DNA of 64,000 nt from Bradyrhizobium erythrophlei (lineage in GTDB: Bacteria; Pseudomonadota; Alphaproteobacteria; Rhizobiales; Xanthobacteraceae). The translations under genes were made by a program, and so were the position numbers. The stretch is from positions 2,170,001 through 2,234,000 of the forward strand of contig NZ_LT670849.1 of assembly GCF_900142985.1 (NCBI RefSeq). The letters run 5' to 3'. Shown here in pieces: positions 43,415 to 51,258 of the stretch. Position 1 is the first letter of the stretch. Each line of letters begins with the position of its first letter. The notes beneath the pieces are model-generated. The model was given only the letters and a program-made list of their open reading frames with translations. It did not search any database and was not told the origin of the DNA.

Positions 43415-44194
43415 TCATGCTCGTTGGCCGGCAGCCTCCAGGATGAGTTGCGTGATTGCGTCGGGATGGGAGATCAGCGAGAGATGGCTGGCCTTCACCT
43501 CGATGGTCTTGGCGCCCATGCGTTTGGCCATGAAGCGCTCGAGGTCCGGATTGATCGTGCGATCCTCGGTGGAAACGGCATAGTAACTCGGCTTCGATCG
43601 CCACGCTGCATTGGTGGTTTTTCCGGCGAGCAGCGCCTTGTGGAACGGCTCCTGCACGGCATAGAGCACCCTGGCTTTGGCGGCCGGCAGGTCGCCGGCA
43701 AAATCGCGCAGGAACGCTTCCTCGGAAAGGCGGCCTTCGTCGCCGTCGAAGACGATGCCCGCGGTCGCCGGCGGCGTCGGAAAGGTCTTGGCGAGTGCGG
43801 TGTAATCCTCGCCCGCGTCAGGCGCACGCGCCGCGACATAGACCAGCGCCGAGACGTTCGGATGAACGCCCGCCTCCGTGACGATCATCCCGGAGAAGGA
43901 ATGACCGACCAGAACCGTCGGGCCATCCTGCCGCGCCAGCACGCGCTCGGCGGACGCAACCGCTTCGGGTAGCGTGGTCAGCGGGTTCTGCACAGCGGTG
44001 GCGTTGAGCCCCGCCGCTTGCAACCGCGCGATCACTTCCGACCAGCACGAGCCGTCGGCGAACAACCCGTGCACCAGCACAACGTTGCGGGCCTTTGCCG
44101 GAGTTGAATTTGCGGCCATGCCGCGTGTGGAGATCAGCGAAGCTGCAGCACCGGTCATGAGGGCCGCAGAAAATGCGCGTCTGTTCATCATCAT
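43415..44194 (-). CDS. Exported alpha/beta hydrolase
   Basis: With the start at 44194 the protein is 259 residues: a twin-arginine-like N-terminus (NRRAFSAALMTGAAASLI) and signal peptide, then an alpha/beta hydrolase. The oxyanion region is HGLFADGSCW, the nucleophile elbow GHSFSG, and the catalytic His is near KASHLSLISHPD. It resembles exported esterase/hydroxynitrile-lyase-like proteins often near OsmC or oxidoreductase genes. The substrate is unknown. It lies 151 bases downstream of the malonyl-CoA decarboxylase gene. Confidence 0.88.
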   Translation of the reverse strand: MMMNRRAFSAALMTGAAASLISTRGMAANSTPAKARNVVLVHGLFADGSCWSEVIARLQAAGLNATAVQNPLTTLPEAVASAERVLARQDGPTVLVGHSFSGMIVTEAGVHPNVSALVYVAARAPDAGEDYTALAKTFPTPPATAGIVFDGDEGRLSEEAFLRDFAGDLPAAKARVLYAVQEPFHKALLAGKTTNAAWRSKPSYYAVSTEDRTINPDLERFMAKRMGAKTIEVKASHLSLISHPDAITQLILEAAGQRA

Positions 44195-44345
44195 GATATC
44201 TCTTCCTTCAAGGATGGTGGGTATCTTGTTGCATGGCGTGGGCGACACAGCGTGACGCCGGCCGACTGGGTTGATCTTTTGCCGTCATTCTCCTCTTGTC
44301 ATCATTCACCGCCTTTCTGCGCTCCTGATGCGAGCGCTCGCTCGT

Positions 44346-45620
44346 TCAAGATTGAAGCAGCGCGTCGACCTCCGGCGAACGCACGACGATGCCGTCACGC
44401 ACGAAGGCGTCGTGGTTGTGCTCGATGCTGTCGTGGTCGTAGAGATAGTTGACCATGATGCCGAAGGATTCCTGGATGCCGCGTGGCGTGTTATTGCCAA
44501 GCCAATTGATCCGTTCGAGCCGCGCGCCATTGCCGAGGTGAAAACGCGCGACCGGGTCGATCCGTATCGAGGGCTTCCGCGTCAGATAGCGGGCGCCAAG
44601 CCGCAACAACGGCGCACGCAGCTTCTCGCTCCGTGCCTGGTCATTCCACCAGCCGTCGCTCTCCAGTTGTGGCAACAACGCGGCATCGGGATCACTTCCA
44701 TTCGCAAGCCGTTGACCGAGCCACCGCCGCAACCCCGGTACCGGCGAGAGGGTAGAAAAATGCTTGAGTTGCGGAAACTCCGCTTTGAGCTCCTCGACCA
44801 CCTGCTTGATCAGGAAATTGCCGAACGAGATGCCGCGCAGGCCGTCCTGACAGTTGGAGATCGAATAGAAAATCGCGGTATCAGCTCGCCCGGCTTGTGC
44901 CCGTGTGGCCTCTTCATCCGTCGTCCGGGCGAGTAGCGGCGGCATGGCTGTGGCCAGTCCCTGCACCAACGCGACTTCGACGAAGATCAGCGGCTCGCCG
45001 GGAAGCGCGGGGTGGAAGAACGCGAAGCAGCGGCGATCGGACGCGAGCCGCCGTCGCAGATCGTCCCAGCCCTTGATCTCATGCACCGCCTCATAGGCGA
45101 TCAGCTTTTCCAAAACCGCAGCCGGAGACTGCCAGTCGATCCGCCGCAGTTCGAGAAAGCCGCGGTTGAACCAGGAAGCGAAGAGATGCTTGAGGTCGGC
45201 GTCGAGCAGCTTCAATTCCGGCTCGTCACGCAGATGCGCGGTAATTTCACTGCGCATCGCGATCAGCGCGCCGGTGCCCCCTGGCGCCATGTTGAGTCGC
45301 CGCAGCAATTCCTGGCGCGGCGGATCGGCGACCCGTGCGAGAGCGGCGGCGGCTTCGGCCGTGCTGTCGGCGAGATAGCGCTCCGCCGCCGCGCGCAGCG
45401 CCGCTTGATCGGGCTGAAACTCCGTCGCAAGATAACGCTGGAAGCTGCGCCGGTCGTCCGCATCGAGGGTACGCAGCAGGTGGTGCAGTTCGCGCGCGAC
45501 CTGCGCGCCGGACGCTTCACCGCGTTCTGATAGCAATGCCGCTGCGCACTGTTTCGCGCGATCCACCGGCGCGGGATTCGAGTTGGAGAGGCCACTTGGG
45601 ATTTGCGTGTTCGCCGACAT
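44346..45620 (-). CDS. mcd: Malonyl-CoA decarboxylase
   Basis: A 424-residue MCD enzyme that turns malonyl-CoA into acetyl-CoA and CO2. The N-terminal helical domain covers residues 1-135, and the GNAT-like catalytic domain follows. The family signature TLSPVPGLRRWL and the C-terminal SIEHNHDAFVRDG, holding the catalytic His, are present. It starts 2 bases after mdcA ends, so the two are one transcription unit. In rhizobia, the matABC system instead uses malonyl-CoA synthetase before this enzyme; no synthetase is seen here. Confidence 0.95.
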   Translation of the reverse strand: MSANTQIPSGLSNSNPAPVDRAKQCAAALLSERGEASGAQVARELHHLLRTLDADDRRSFQRYLATEFQPDQAALRAAAERYLADSTAEAAAALARVADPPRQELLRRLNMAPGGTGALIAMRSEITAHLRDEPELKLLDADLKHLFASWFNRGFLELRRIDWQSPAAVLEKLIAYEAVHEIKGWDDLRRRLASDRRCFAFFHPALPGEPLIFVEVALVQGLATAMPPLLARTTDEEATRAQAGRADTAIFYSISNCQDGLRGISFGNFLIKQVVEELKAEFPQLKHFSTLSPVPGLRRWLGQRLANGSDPDAALLPQLESDGWWNDQARSEKLRAPLLRLGARYLTRKPSIRIDPVARFHLGNGARLERINWLGNNTPRGIQESFGIMVNYLYDHDSIEHNHDAFVRDGIVVRSPEVDALLQS

Positions 45621-45622
45621 GG

Positions 45623-47287
45623 TTAGCTCCTGATTTCAACGGCGGGGACCGTGGCCGGGCGGAATTTCGCCGGCGGCACGTAAAGTCCGCCTGACGCGGT
45701 CACGAGGTCGTCGATGGTTTGGGCCGCGAGCCGATCGCGGGTTGCGGAGCTGACATCGATGCCGAGATCGGAGGGGAACATCACGATGCCGCGGCGGCGC
45801 AGGGCGTCGCTTGTTTCAGGCGACTGTCGCCTGCCGAACTCGGTATCGCCGGCGACGGCGCGCAATGCGGCTTCGCGTTCCTGCATCGACCGGCAACGCA
45901 GAAGGTTGGCCACGCCGCGTTCGGTGACGACATGGGTGACGTCGTCGCCATGGATCATCACCGGCGGCAGCGCAAAGCCGGCCGAGGCCGCGAGGTCGAA
46001 CGCGTCCAGCCGTTCGACGAAGCTCGGTGCGCCATTCGGCTGATGGGTCTGCACCATCTGCACCACAAGCTTGCGTCCGCGCAGGCTTTCGCCCGCTTCC
46101 TGACCGGCGCGTAGCCAGGCGGGACTGTCGTGGCGGCGACCGCGTGGGTCGGCACCCATGTTCGGCGCGCCGCCGAATCCGGTGATGCGGCCCTTGGTAG
46201 CCGTCGAGCTATTGCCCTGCGCGTCGATCTGCAGCGTGGCGCCAACGAAGAGATCGCAGGCATATTGTCCGGCGACCTGGGCGAGCGCGCGGTTGGAGCG
46301 CAGGTTGCCGTCAGCGCCAACCGGAAATATGTCGGCGCGGTTCGAGACGTAGCGTTCCATGCCCAGTTCGGAGCCAAAGCAGTAAACGCTGTCGACGAAG
46401 CCGGCTTCGATCGCGGGGATCAGCGTCGGGTGCGGGTTCAGCACGAAATGCCTGGCGATTTTCCCCTTCAGCCCGCGCTGCGCGGCAAAGGTCGGCAGCA
46501 TCAGTTCGATCGCCGCGGTGGCGTAGCCGATGCCGTGATTGAGCCGCTGCACCTGGTAGGGCTCGTAGACCGCGGTGATCGCCATCATCGCCATCAGAAC
46601 GTTCTCGTTCCTGATCTTGGCGGGATCGCGCGTGAACAGCGGATCGATCAGATATGGCTTTGGACTCGGCACCACGACATCGACCCAGTCGCCAGGTATG
46701 TCTACCCGCGGCAGGCGGTCCACGACCTCGTTGACCTGTGCGACGACGACGCCGCCGCGGAACGCCGTTGCCTCGGTGATGGTCGGCGTATCCTCCGTGT
46801 TCGGGCCGGTGTAGAGATTGCCCTCGCGGTCGGCCTTGTCGGCGACGACAAGTGCGACCTGCGGCGTCAGGTCCACCAGCATTCGGGCGTAGAGTTCGAG
46901 ATAGGTGTGGATCGCGCCGATCCTGACCGCGTTCGTCGCAACGAGCTCGGCAAGCTTGCGGCTTTGCGGCCCCGCAAAGGAGAAATCCAGCCGGTTCGCG
47001 ATCCCGCGCTCGAACACCGCGAGATGGTCCGGTAGTGCCAACACGGACTGCACCATGTGCAGATCGTGCACCCGCGCAGGATCCACCTTCGCCAGGGCCG
47101 AGGCGAGAAAATCCGCCTGCTTCTGATTGTCGCCTTCGATCGTGACGCGGTCGCCGGACTCGATAATCGCCTCAAGCAGCCGCGTGGCGAGATCGGCGGG
47201 GCAGACTTTTCCGCTTATGCCGCTGAGCGCGGCAGCCCGCGCGAGACGAGAGGCGCGATCCGTTCCGCGTCGTACCGAGTCTGACAT
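45623..47287 (-). CDS. mdcA: Malonate decarboxylase alpha subunit (CoA/ACP transferase)
   Basis: A 554-residue MdcA-like transferase. In the normal malonate decarboxylase it moves malonyl onto the phosphoribosyl-dephospho-CoA arm of MdcC. The signature GGAPNMGADPRGRRHDSPAW and the DKADREGNLYTGPNTEDTPT block are typical. The start at 47287 has AAGGAGG 9 bases upstream. None of the partners mdcB, C, D, E, G or H is beside it. It is followed immediately by a malonyl-CoA decarboxylase gene and is divergent from a LysR gene. Confidence 0.9.
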   Translation of the reverse strand: MSDSVRRGTDRASRLARAAALSGISGKVCPADLATRLLEAIIESGDRVTIEGDNQKQADFLASALAKVDPARVHDLHMVQSVLALPDHLAVFERGIANRLDFSFAGPQSRKLAELVATNAVRIGAIHTYLELYARMLVDLTPQVALVVADKADREGNLYTGPNTEDTPTITEATAFRGGVVVAQVNEVVDRLPRVDIPGDWVDVVVPSPKPYLIDPLFTRDPAKIRNENVLMAMMAITAVYEPYQVQRLNHGIGYATAAIELMLPTFAAQRGLKGKIARHFVLNPHPTLIPAIEAGFVDSVYCFGSELGMERYVSNRADIFPVGADGNLRSNRALAQVAGQYACDLFVGATLQIDAQGNSSTATKGRITGFGGAPNMGADPRGRRHDSPAWLRAGQEAGESLRGRKLVVQMVQTHQPNGAPSFVERLDAFDLAASAGFALPPVMIHGDDVTHVVTERGVANLLRCRSMQEREAALRAVAGDTEFGRRQSPETSDALRRRGIVMFPSDLGIDVSSATRDRLAAQTIDDLVTASGGLYVPPAKFRPATVPAVEIRS

Positions 47288-47337
47288 GATGAACCTCCTT
47301 CGCTGTCCTTGAAGCGAGAGGTAGGAGGCCGCCATTG

Positions 47338-47361
47338 ATTATAGAAACGATATTTTATAAT
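47338..47361. promoter_or_regulatory. Operator between mdcA and its LysR regulator
   Basis: ATTATA (47338-47343) and TATAAT (47356-47361) form a perfect 6-base dyad with 12 bases between, in an AT-rich patch of an otherwise GC-rich region. It lies 51-74 bases from the mdcA start and 30-53 bases from the LysR start, as expected for a LysR site controlling both. Confidence 0.55.
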
Positions 47362-47390
47362 ATGATTGATCTCAAATATGGATTAATCAC

Positions 47391-48251
47391 ATGCTGGATT
47401 TCGAGCTGTTGCGCACCTTCGTTGCCGTCGCCGATTGCGGCGGTTTCCACCGCGCCGCGGAGCGGCTCAACCTGACGCAGTCAACGGTAAGCCAGCAGAT
47501 CAAGCGGCTTGAGCTCGAAACCAAACGGCCCTTGTTCCGGCGGACAACGCGCAGTGTCGCACTGACTGACGATGGCGAGATGCTGCTTGGCGACGCGCGT
47601 CGCCTGTTGCAATTCGAGGAAGCAGCCCGTCATCGCCTGGCGGCGCCGCGACTGTCGGGCACGGCGCGTCTCGGCGTGGTCGAGGAGGTCGCCAGCGGCG
47701 CGCTGCCTTCTGCGCTCGGCCGCTTCGCCAAGCTCCATCCGGGCGTGAAGCTCGAGGTACAGATCGGCGTCAGCGCGGAATTGATCGAGCAACTCAATGC
47801 GGGGCGGCTTGACGTTGTGTTCGCAAAGCGCCCGCTTGGAACTTCGAAAGGACGTCTGGTGTGGCGTGAGCCGTTGGTCTGGGCCGCGGCAGACACGTTC
47901 GATCTCATTCCGGGTGCAGCGTTGCCGCTGGCACTGTATCGCGAACGATCCGTTTCTCGCGAGGCTGCGCTCGCCGCGCTCAACGACAACGAACTGACCT
48001 GGGAGATCACCTACACCAGCCCCAGTCTGACAGGCGTGCGCGCGGCAGCGCTCGCGGGCCTCGCCATCACCCCGCTCCCTGTCAGCGCGCTGATCGCGGG
48101 TTTGCGCATTCTGGGTGTTGAGGACGGATTGCCACGGCTTCCTGACCTTGAGTTCGCGATCTACGAGAAGGCGCGGCCCGACAAGGCCGCCGCGGCGCTG
48201 GCTGCGGTTCTGCTGACCCTCGTACAGGGACCATCACGTCCGGCGATCTGA
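47391..48251 (+). CDS. LysR-family regulator divergent from the malonate genes
   Basis: A 286-residue LysR regulator with HTH block LDFELLRTFVAVADCGGFHR and STVSQQIKRLELETKRPL. The effector domain begins near residue 90 (ARLGVVEEVASGALPSALGR). By position it is the likely malonate-responsive activator of the mdcA-mcd pair, in line with MdcR of other bacteria. It may be a paralogue of the LysR at 41271, whose HTH opening is nearly identical. Confidence 0.9.
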   Translation: MLDFELLRTFVAVADCGGFHRAAERLNLTQSTVSQQIKRLELETKRPLFRRTTRSVALTDDGEMLLGDARRLLQFEEAARHRLAAPRLSGTARLGVVEEVASGALPSALGRFAKLHPGVKLEVQIGVSAELIEQLNAGRLDVVFAKRPLGTSKGRLVWREPLVWAAADTFDLIPGAALPLALYRERSVSREAALAALNDNELTWEITYTSPSLTGVRAAALAGLAITPLPVSALIAGLRILGVEDGLPRLPDLEFAIYEKARPDKAAAALAAVLLTLVQGPSRPAI

Positions 48252-48285: not shown

Positions 48286-48891
48286 CTAGAGCCAGGGACG
48301 TTCGACGCTCTGCTTCTTCTCGTAGGCGTCGATCCTGTCCTTCTTCAACAGCGAAAGCTCGATCTCGTCATAGCCGTTGAGCAGACTCTCGCGCGAGAAT
48401 TCCGCGACGTCGAAGCGATCGACCTGCCCGTCCGGTCCGGTCACGGTTTGCGCGCGCAGATCGACGGTGATTTCGGCGCCGGGGAGTTCGGTCAGGAACT
48501 GGATCAGTTCGTGGACCCGCTTGGCGTTCAGCCGGACTGGCAACATGCCGTTCTTGAACATGTTGTTGTAGAAGATGTCGGCGAATGACGGCGCGATGAC
48601 GCAACGGATGCCGAAATCGAGCAGTGCCCAGGGCGCGTGCTCGCGGCTCGATCCGCAACCAAAGTTCTCACCAGCCACCAGGATCTTCGCCTTGCGGAAT
48701 GGTCCCTGATTCAGGACGAAGTCCGACCGCTCTTCGCCGTTTTCATTGTAGCGTCGTTCGGAGAACAGCGCCTTGCCAAGCCCGGCCCGCTTGATCGTCT
48801 TCAGGAACTGCTTGGGAATGATCGCGTCGGTATCTACGTTGGGAATTCCCATCGGGGCGGCCACGGCCGTCAGCTTCTCAAACTTCTCCAT
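48286..48891 (-). CDS. leuD: 3-isopropylmalate dehydratase small subunit homologue
   Basis: A 201-residue aconitase-fold swivel subunit. The signature [19 protein letters not shown], the [20 protein letters not shown] opening and the [18 protein letters not shown] block are complete. In leucine synthesis LeuD works with LeuC, which is not encoded here. Its start overlaps the end of the hydantoinase-like gene by 14 bases, so the two are coupled. It may be a second copy with another hydro-lyase role. Confidence 0.9.
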
Positions 48892-51064
48892 CCTCGCTCT
48901 CCTCTCGCATCTTCTCGCTCGACATCTTCTCGGCCGACACCGCTCGTCCCAGGCCGATCAGAACCAGCGGCGTGTCAGGCGCCACGCCCGAAAGTTCGCT
49001 ATCCACGATCTTGACCGCATTGGAATAACGGCTTTCGTCGGTCACGTCGATCAGGTGGCTATCATACAGCAAAACCGCCCCGAAAAAGGCATCGGCCGGG
49101 TCTTTAGGTCCGAACAGGTTCATCGATCGCAACGAATCCTGCCATTTTTCGACGGTCGTCCGATGCACCACCGCATGGCTGCGCTGCAAACGCACGTTTC
49201 CGCGCCGGTCGACAATCCGGAGCGAATGCCTCGAGCCGGCTGTCGGAGCGTAGACAAATGCGCCGGGGGTTTCGGCCACCAGTTCGATCTCGTCCTCCGA
49301 CTGCCGCAACGATCTGGCCGCGACACGACGGGCCTGCCGCTCCGAGACCGTTTCCGTTTCTCCGGAGCTGCGCAGCGCGGCGGCGCCGGTGGCGATCGCC
49401 CGGATCCTGCCGGTTTGGCGGTCGATCTCTATCGAGATGTCGACCGTCTTCGGGTCCGCCCCGAGTTTACCGATCGCCTCCAGGGTCTCGGCGCGAAGAT
49501 GGACGATGTCGTCGGACGACGGATCGGGGTTCACCCGTTCGACGACCTCGCGAACCATCGCCAGCGCGGCGCCGATCGAGGAAATGATCTCCGCATCCTT
49601 CGCAATCTCGAACCGCAGACCCAACTGATCCGCAACCGTCGGCAACAGGGCGCCGATGCCCCCACCCGTCCCGATCAGCACCTGCTGGTCCTCGTCGAGC
49701 TGATAGTCCTTGATCAGGGACAGGATGGTCGGCGTCACCTTGCCCGCCGCCGAGGCGAGCACTTCCTTCGCCAGCGAGATGACATCCTTTCCGACCACTG
49801 CGGCAAGCGGAGCGAAGGCCGCGCGAGCGGCTTCCGCTGGCGCGTAGCAATGCATCTCCGGATCGGTCAGCCCGGCGGCATTGGCGGCGCAGGTGGTCGT
49901 CAACGCAAAGCGGCCGTGCCGTTCGGTTTCGATCGCGACGAAATCGTCACCGTCGCCCGGCTTCGGCTCGAAGAAGACGACGCGCGCGTTCTCGAAGATC
50001 TCGGCGGGCGCGAAGCAGGCGTATCGGAGCCCGGCGATATGAGCGCTTCGCGGCCCGACCTCGCGCACCGAACCGTCAGCGATCCTGATCAAGCTGCCGC
50101 CCGCGACACCCAGCACGCGCACGTCAAGGGAACTGACATAGGTATCGTGCCCACCGACATTTGCATAGGCCACGACCGGACGGCCGGCCTTGACGATACC
50201 GAGGTTCGTCGATGTGCCGCCGACTTCGAAATAGATTCCGTCGGACATGCCGACATGCATCAACGAGCCCGCTACGCTCGCCGCCGGTCCCGACAGCATC
50301 GTCATGGCCGGCCGATGCCGCATTTCGCCGATGCTCATCACGCCGCCGTCGCCGCGCATGATCATCAGCGGCGCATCGATGCCGGCCTTTTTGATGCTCG
50401 TTTCGGTCAGGTTGGCGGTTGCGATCATCCGCGGCAGGATCGATGCATTGATCACCGCGGTGCGCGTTCTGGTCGTCAGCCCGTACAGCCGCGTCACCTC
50501 ATGCCCGCACGTCGTCGGAAGACCGAACCCGTCGCCGACCTCACGAACCAGTTCTTCGGTCGAGGTATTGTCGACGCCGAAGGCCGCCGACGCCACCAGC
50601 ACCTGGGCGCCCGCCGCGCGGAGCGCAGCCACGGCGTTCTCGACGACCTTGCGGTCGAGCCCGTCGCTCTGCAGGAATTGGTTGCAGGTCTGAAGCACGC
50701 GGCCCGGCGCGAGTTCGATCGGATCGATCTGAACCTGCGCTTGCGCGAGTTTCGCCGCCCTGGCGCCCGCCAGGCCCAGGATTCCGACCCTGGCAACATC
50801 GCCCTCCAGCAAGGCATTCGTCGCCTGCGTCGTGCTGTGGGCAAGAAGGACGACGTCGCCGGCGTCGATGCCGGCATCGCCCAGGACCCGTTTGAACACC
50901 TGGATGACGCCCGCCGCGACGCCGTCCGGATGATCATGGGTGGTATGAACGGACGAACGCCCGACGACGCTGCCGTCGATACTGTCGATCAAGGCGGCTT
51001 TTGTGAAAGTTCCTCCTACGTCGATTCCGATGCGATAGGATTTTTTGCTCAAGACCTCGTCCAT
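48878..51064 (-). CDS. Hydantoinase A/oxoprolinase family protein
   Basis: A 728-residue protein with the start at 51064 ([20 protein letters not shown]). The ASKHA ATPase fold is shown by [32 protein letters not shown] and [11 protein letters not shown]. The family includes hydantoinase HyuA, 5-oxoprolinase and acetone carboxylase beta subunits, and activates amide or carbonyl groups with ATP. No HyuB-like partner gene is adjacent. It shares a 14-base overlap with leuD. The substrate is unknown. Confidence 0.9.
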
Positions 51065-51258
51065 TCTCCATCCGGGCCTCCGGAAACAATCCACTAACTA
51101 GCTTAAAGTGAGGTCAACCCACAATCGCCGCACGGCGGGAGTGCATGCGCGATGCGCGCGTCTGGCTATTTCCGGCGCGTGGCGAAATCCTATATTGCCG
51201 CCGGTGGGCCGGATTCCCTCGCCCACCCAACCGCCGTTGACAGAGCCTGGAGCTCCGA

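Follow-up and report, generated by a model that had tools for sequence, protein, structure and literature searches.

The best explanation for a pair of genes found in a 64,000-nucleotide stretch of the Bradyrhizobium erythrophlei genome (contig NZ_LT670849.1, positions 2,170,001 to 2,234,000; this whole stretch is called the window below) is that they form a LysR-controlled module for malonate decarboxylation that would work without an acyl carrier protein (ACP), a reading to which we give a probability of about 0.7. The first gene codes for a transferase of the MdcA type, the second, which begins 2 bases after the stop of the first, for a malonyl-CoA decarboxylase (MCD). The MdcA-type protein has kept its active site and has lost the surface on which the carrier docks, and for this reason the pair probably degrades malonate by way of ordinary coenzyme A (CoA).

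The mdcA-type gene (45623..47287, minus strand) encodes 554 amino acids and matches PF16957 with 876 bits and the NCBIfam model TIGR01110 with 847 bits, above the cut-off of 789. It starts at an ATG with AAGGAGG ahead of it, within a frame that can open 16 codons earlier, and its product contains the signature GGAPNMGADPRGRRHD. The mcd gene (44346..45620, minus strand, 424 amino acids) has the domains PF05292 and PF17408. On the other side lies a divergent LysR-type regulator of 286 amino acids (47391..48251, plus strand; PF00126 and PF03466). The open reading frames and the domain searches therefore agree with an earlier note on this DNA in the description of the MdcA protein, its signature, the 2-base distance and the divergent regulator; none of mdcB, mdcC, mdcD, mdcE or mdcG adjoins the gene, as that note had also stated. 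Its wording that the two genes are fused has to be dropped, since in the window they are adjacent and nothing is fused. The window is part of a single 7.5-Mb contig, and the completeness of the genome is rated 100%.

The arrangement is not peculiar to this strain and occurs in other soil bacteria. A scan of the genome collection gave 405 places that encode an MdcA relative, and the best 80, which were kept, split sharply into 25 loci at 81-93% identity to the window protein and 55 at 67% or less. The nearest relatives (91-93%) belong to Bradyrhizobium and one Tardiphaga metagenome-assembled genome (MAG). Among the 25 loci of at least 81% identity, MCD lies directly downstream of mdcA in 24 (the 25th stops at a contig end), a LysR like that of the window is present in 24, and mdcC, mdcD and mdcE are missing from the fetched stretch in all. 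No mdcB match was found in the fetched stretches of 25 MCD-linked loci, and no genome-wide mdcB search was made. The other 55 loci have mdcC and mdcD in 49 cases and MCD in none; the remaining six, from Pyramidobacter and Dialister, have neither mdcC/D nor MCD in the fetched stretch. Carriers of the pair among the best 80 are mostly Bradyrhizobium, together with Tardiphaga, Phenylobacterium, unclassified alphaproteobacterial MAGs and Acidisphaera, and the database matches listed include close MdcA relatives in Microvirga, Sphingomonadales and Casimicrobiaceae MAGs, whose gene neighbours were outside the comparison.

Within the genus (265 genomes) two types of MdcA could be told apart by score, a lower-scoring type like that of the window (882 bits or less) in 39 genomes and a high-scoring type (at least 905 bits) in 68. 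MCD is adjacent by coordinates in 38 of the 39 genomes with the lower-scoring type, and in the 39th mdcA and MCD lie at two contig ends. MdcC is absent from 33 of these 39 genomes, and each of the six that have it also has a high-scoring MdcA. There is no sign that this type and the carrier-type mdc operon exclude each other in the genus (both in 6 genomes, about 10 expected). Beyond the genus the window type is rare. Three of the 119 genomes of the family have it, namely the strain itself, G105 and G095 (the last of another genus), and by score only the strain itself and G105 among 398 phylum-wide genomes; a partial match in G666 was assigned to neither type. A conjugative plasmid, pCB82_1, carries the LysR gene and, beside it, mdcA, MCD and an alpha/beta hydrolase in this order, near a transposase. 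The genes flanking the module fall into groups, several of them shared between loci and many not, and pairwise distances of mdcA, mcd and lysR correlate at 0.86-0.88 (25 of 28 loci); from the varied flanks and the correlated distances we read the module as a unit moving together.

The evidence for the loss of carrier docking comes from the residues of the MdcA-type protein. As reference positions we have used the malonate site and the MdcC and MdcE contacts of Pseudomonas MdcA, as given in the available text of PMC5534430. The MCD-linked set had 28 rows from 27 distinct loci, and the carrier-type set had 57 rows (49 collection loci and 8 family loci with MdcC nearby). L014, L017 and L034 denote one locus, and in L041 a frameshift in mdcA makes the residues beyond about 458 unreliable. 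The ten active-site residues known from the literature are unchanged in the window protein and throughout the 28 linked rows. At the docking face the picture is the opposite. Position 424, aromatic in 57 of 57 carrier-type rows, is R in 18 linked rows, H in 7, Q in 2 and S in 1; position 490, hydrophobic in 57 of 57, has become D in 25 and N in 2, with one gap; position 515 (E in 55, A in 2) is S in 22, A in 4, G in 1 and R in 1; position 466 (E in 56, D in 1) is R, H or K in 18 of 28; and at the neighbouring position 422 E has changed to Q in 26 linked rows. All five are replaced in the window protein itself. In the available text of PMC5534430, F424A is the only single interface mutation that breaks the Pseudomonas complex. 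The linked rows have also gained conserved arginines, at 279 (R in 28) and at 234 (R in 27, H in 1). The latter lies six residues past R228, a residue of Pseudomonas MdcA that the same text places near the prosthetic diphosphate. Arg234, Arg279 and the basic residue at 424 may hold the nucleotide of CoA.

The same tendency appears when no positions are chosen beforehand. Of 376 columns whose residue class is conserved in the carrier type, 17 have switched class in the linked type, 16 of them in the carrier-binding domain, and switches are enriched at the named contact positions (4/12 against 13/364, p=0.0011). Seven carrier-type control clades have 0-2 switches at these contacts (p>=0.15); they are Burkholderiaceae (29 rows), Legionella/Francisella (4), a Myxo clade (4) and, with 3 rows each, Gallionella, Bradyrhizobium carrier-type, the G100 group and the D16-56 group. 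Along similar lines, 8000 database proteins were scored, and in the best 120 listed, position 424 carries a basic residue in 113 and an aromatic one in 1. Arginine or histidine stands at 234 in all 120 and arginine at 279 in 118, and the active-site residues are kept in 118-120.

In the mechanism that we propose, the MdcA-type protein would use acetyl-CoA as the CoA donor for malonate, with malonyl-CoA and acetate as products, through the mixed-anhydride chemistry proposed for MdcA and with free CoA in place of the MdcC carrier. MCD would then turn malonyl-CoA into acetyl-CoA and CO2, as its intact family domains and catalytic dyad suggest, and this acetyl-CoA would prime the next turn. Ser312 and His389 of the Rhodopseudomonas MCD are counterparts of the catalytic dyad in the available text of PMC3701320; their equivalents here, by alignment, are Ser292 and His361, found in 26 of 27 aligned copies with a gap in the remaining one. 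The net result would be malonate to acetate and CO2, with CoA acting catalytically and no ATP spent. The acetate would be activated later at the usual cost, and so the energetics of growth should equal those of the MatB route unless another acyl-CoA is the donor. Malonate is the putative inducer of the operon.

The lysR-mdcA intergenic region (47288..47390) holds a putative LysR operator, the inverted repeat ATTGAT-N11-ATCAAT (47365..47387), whose arms in the window differ by one mismatch. T-N11-A is the geometry of LysR boxes. Already proposed as an operator in the earlier note, the dyad leaves a footprint across an alignment of 26 intergenic regions (25 distinct), where the lysR-proximal arm varies somewhat, and is followed by a conserved ATATTATAAAATAT and then by a third ATCAAT half site. 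In one locus, L020 (Bradyrhizobium erythrophlei GAS478), lysR is about 2.2 kb away from mdcA.

The proposed cycle shares features with several known systems. With the biotin-independent malonate decarboxylase MdcA(BC)DE(GH), e.g., that of Pseudomonas (PDB 5VIT, 5VJ1), it has in common the MdcA family, the ten active-site residues and probably the net reaction, malonate to acetate and CO2. The differences are that the window genome has no MdcC and no MdcD-MdcE at the cut-off, that the docking residues are replaced and that MCD would be the decarboxylating enzyme. In the MatABC system of Rhizobium trifolii, a malonyl-CoA synthetase (MatB) acts with a malonyl-CoA decarboxylase (MatA), according to the available text of PMC12303837. 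Malonyl-CoA as intermediate and an MCD-family decarboxylase with a Ser-His dyad are shared with the window pair, in which, however, malonate would be activated by CoA transfer and not by ATP, acetate would be the product, and MatB is encoded outside the mdcA-mcd cluster. The two proposed reactions are the same as malonate CoA-transferase, Enzyme Commission (EC) number 2.8.3.3, and EC 4.1.1.9 of old Pseudomonas biochemistry, but the EC 2.8.3.3 activity cited in the available texts was that of malonate decarboxylase preparations from P. ovalis and P. putida. The accessible part of PMC8307300 cites EC 2.8.3.3 for P. ovalis, and a table in it gives no KEGG number for this activity. In an acyl-CoA cycling assay, as described in the accessible part of PMC7071249, the P. 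putida malonate decarboxylase worked on picomoles of acetyl-CoA or malonyl-CoA with 50 mM malonate. The assay and the EC citation make the use of free CoA precedented, and they back what the earlier note had mentioned without a citation. What seems new here is an MdcA lineage specialised for free CoA; the chemistry itself has its precedent. Carrier-type malonate decarboxylase genes have been reported in Bradyrhizobium (in the available portions of PMC4861915 and PMC11973431), and our literature search, mostly at the level of titles and abstracts, found no earlier description of the mdcA-mcd pair.

If the cycle is real, the reaction pair of old Pseudomonas enzymology has dedicated genes, malonate breakdown has a further genetic route beside Mdc/Mad and Mat, a small ATP-independent enzyme pair is available for malonyl-CoA supply, and there is an example of a carrier-dependent subunit released to use free CoA. 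Wherever the name of a listed relative is readable, the databases call it "malonate decarboxylase alpha subunit", as they do the copy on pCB82_1. This name implies a complex, while 33 of the 39 genus genomes with this MdcA have no carrier for it.

In a tree computed in quick mode, leaving out L035, a long-stemmed branch with 100% support in the Shimodaira-Hasegawa-like approximate likelihood ratio test separates the 27 linked rows from the rest; Acidisphaera and Phenylobacterium fall inside the linked group. The module genes are under purifying selection, with median ratios of non-synonymous to synonymous substitution (dN/dS) of 0.129 for mdcA, 0.196 for mcd, 0.117 for lysR and 0.092 for the hydrolase gene described below. 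As to the origin, a carrier-type mdc operon of Acetobacteraceae bacterium KSS12 (L096:6035-8605) is likewise flanked by a divergent LysR, which shares 39% identity with that of the window. This regulator and layout suggest that, in an older lysR-mdcA arrangement, the genes for the carrier and the decarboxylase gave way to MCD.

We have searched the rest of the genome for other malonate genes, as the earlier note had advised, with a mixed outcome. MdcC (TIGR03130) has no match in the genome, while in this search 9 of the 119 family genomes exceed the cut-off. MdcE (PF06833) has none either, nor does any control genome have one above the cut-off. For MdcD there are only matches below the cut-off (best 73 bits against 278), and scores of about this size occur in 119 of 119 family genomes, the cut-off being passed by 9. 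The MdcG search also gave nothing, which is weak because the control genomes likewise gave nothing. MatB, by contrast with these, is present as a single match over the cut-off (878 bits against 558) at G000:C1:2805632-2807137, about 0.59 Mb from mdcA-mcd and not in the same cluster. No MCD lies near it, and the first residues of the open reading frames within the surrounding 11 kb show no evident matC. Most genomes of the family have an MCD gene (105 of 119).

Several observations weigh against the cycle as proposed. MatB and a second MCD of the genome (C1:4277522) offer another possible malonate route, so that the mdcA-MCD cycle need not be the malonate route of this genome. The earlier note's picture of a free-CoA MdcA acting beside MCD without ACP is strongly though indirectly supported by the recurrence of the pair, the loss of docking residues, the intact malonate site and the missing MdcC, but the pair may not be the sole route. 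No linked malonate transporter was recognised among the recurrent flanking genes (by clustering and by eye from first residues), and several copies look damaged, in mdcA (G195, G206, G278, G375, G330) or in mcd (G153, G095), which makes the function dispensable. On the residue side, 466 remains E in 6 of 28 linked rows; E466A, I490A, R521A and R500A left the Pseudomonas complex intact according to the available text of PMC5534430; the enrichment of class switches is less marked at three other settings (p = 0.0017, 0.007 and 0.015); a single stem branch of the tree leads to all linked sequences; and the window protein passes the curated equivalog cut-off for mdcA.

This last point is also what favours a protein that is still an ACP transferase, acting on an unrecognised or a fatty-acid-type carrier and with MCD adjacent for some other reason. 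We consider this improbable, given that MdcC is absent from the genome itself and from most genomes of the genus with this MdcA, that the residues docking it are replaced and that MCD is adjacent in 38 of 39. Slightly less improbable, though still unlikely, is that the same two proteins use another CoA donor, e.g., succinyl-CoA, turning malonate into acetyl-CoA, succinate and CO2 and saving the activation of acetate. The net energetics of such a reaction would be better, and donor preference cannot be read from residues alone; yet the ten published active-site residues are those of the acetyl-using MdcA, nearly so in the best 120 relatives too, and the pocket of Pseudomonas MdcA is narrow and thought to fit only an acetylated pantothenate arm (available text of PMC5534430). 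The idea of a malonate decarboxylase operon in decay, reduced to a remnant without function, which could draw on the lack of mdc neighbours beside mdcA and on the damaged copies, we regard as very improbable in the face of the low dN/dS medians of all four genes, the conservation of the operator and that of the new residues (R279 in 28/28 linked rows and 118/120 best-listed relatives).

A different question is what the cycle would be for. Malonate is an inhibitor of succinate dehydrogenase, and the cycle could be real and serve to remove malonate, with MatB and the second MCD serving growth. The presence of these two genes in the genome, the accessory and scattered distribution of the module (39/265 genus genomes) and the lack of a recognised linked transporter are in favour of such a role; nothing speaks directly against it, but a dedicated LysR with its operator fits catabolism equally well, and we hold this purpose to be possible and rather doubtful. 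As it concerns physiology and is compatible with the ACP-free module, its odds lie outside the sum that covers the other explanations.

Going one step further, the observations could be gathered in a single claim, which we judge only a little more probable than its negation: an MdcA lineage would have left the complex, turned its docking face into a CoA-binding face (Arg234, Arg279, basic 424) and become an acetyl-CoA:malonate CoA-transferase in its own right, which would provide a dedicated gene for EC 2.8.3.3. In the same claim a mobile operon would unite this lineage with MCD and an exported esterase, so as to release malonate from conjugates and decarboxylate it with neither ACP nor ATP, and Dialister and Pyramidobacter would be a second, independent escape from the carrier. 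The MdcA of this second group (6 sequences, including that of L082) has no carrier gene in the fetched stretch and has changed docking residues, 3 of 12 contact positions being switched (p=0.0036). Pyramidobacter MdcA is a possible second carrier-free group. In Dialister succinatiphilus (L082:5355-8584) MadL and MadM (Pfam) precede mdcA, and the fetched stretch has no match to mdcC, mdcD, mdcE or MCD; an open reading frame similar to that of L082 precedes mdcA in L069. The Pyramidobacter loci L054, L057 and L058 have mdcA and neither mdcC/D/E nor MCD in the fetched stretch, and in L054 a DctM-like transporter follows mdcA.

The esterase in question is an alpha/beta hydrolase with a twin-arginine-type leader (43415..44248, minus strand; PF12697), encoded just downstream of mcd on the same strand. 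Of the 25 distinct loci that could be assessed (the 28 rows less L019 and L035, where the stretch ends, and the duplicate L017), 18 have it after mcd in this way, and the gene probably belongs to the operon. The two-gene unit of the earlier note thus stands as far as the mdcA-MCD pair goes, but there are often three structural genes. The leader is seen in the window and in 11 of 18 other hydrolase sequences, the compared stretch of the rest not showing the start; that of Acidisphaera (L028) aligns only in part. Among solved structures the hydrolase bears a weak likeness to salicylic acid-binding protein 2, a pyrethroid hydrolase and polyneuridine aldehyde esterase. Our guess would be that it is secreted and, as an esterase, releases malonate from conjugates; a literature look-up linking the hydrolase to malonylated plant compounds gave nothing useful, and the idea is speculation.

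Some minor observations complete the picture. In L102 (G330:C1:6580001-6592000) mdcA and mcd form one 984-codon frame; this copy carries the active-site changes Y134C and N292D, was treated as decaying and was given no weight as a gene fusion. In L011 and L015 (G066:C1:2367672-2369307) a carrier-type mdcA, lying upstream of mdcC and mdcD, is split over two overlapping frames, either as a two-piece MdcA or by a frameshift. Scans for sigma-70 promoters and terminators were uninformative (1 promoter-like site with 0.6 expected, 3 terminator-like sites with 3.3 expected). Beyond lysR, a hydantoinase/oxoprolinase-type protein (Pfam) is encoded at 48878-51094 of the window and overlaps leuD (48286-48891) by 14 bases.

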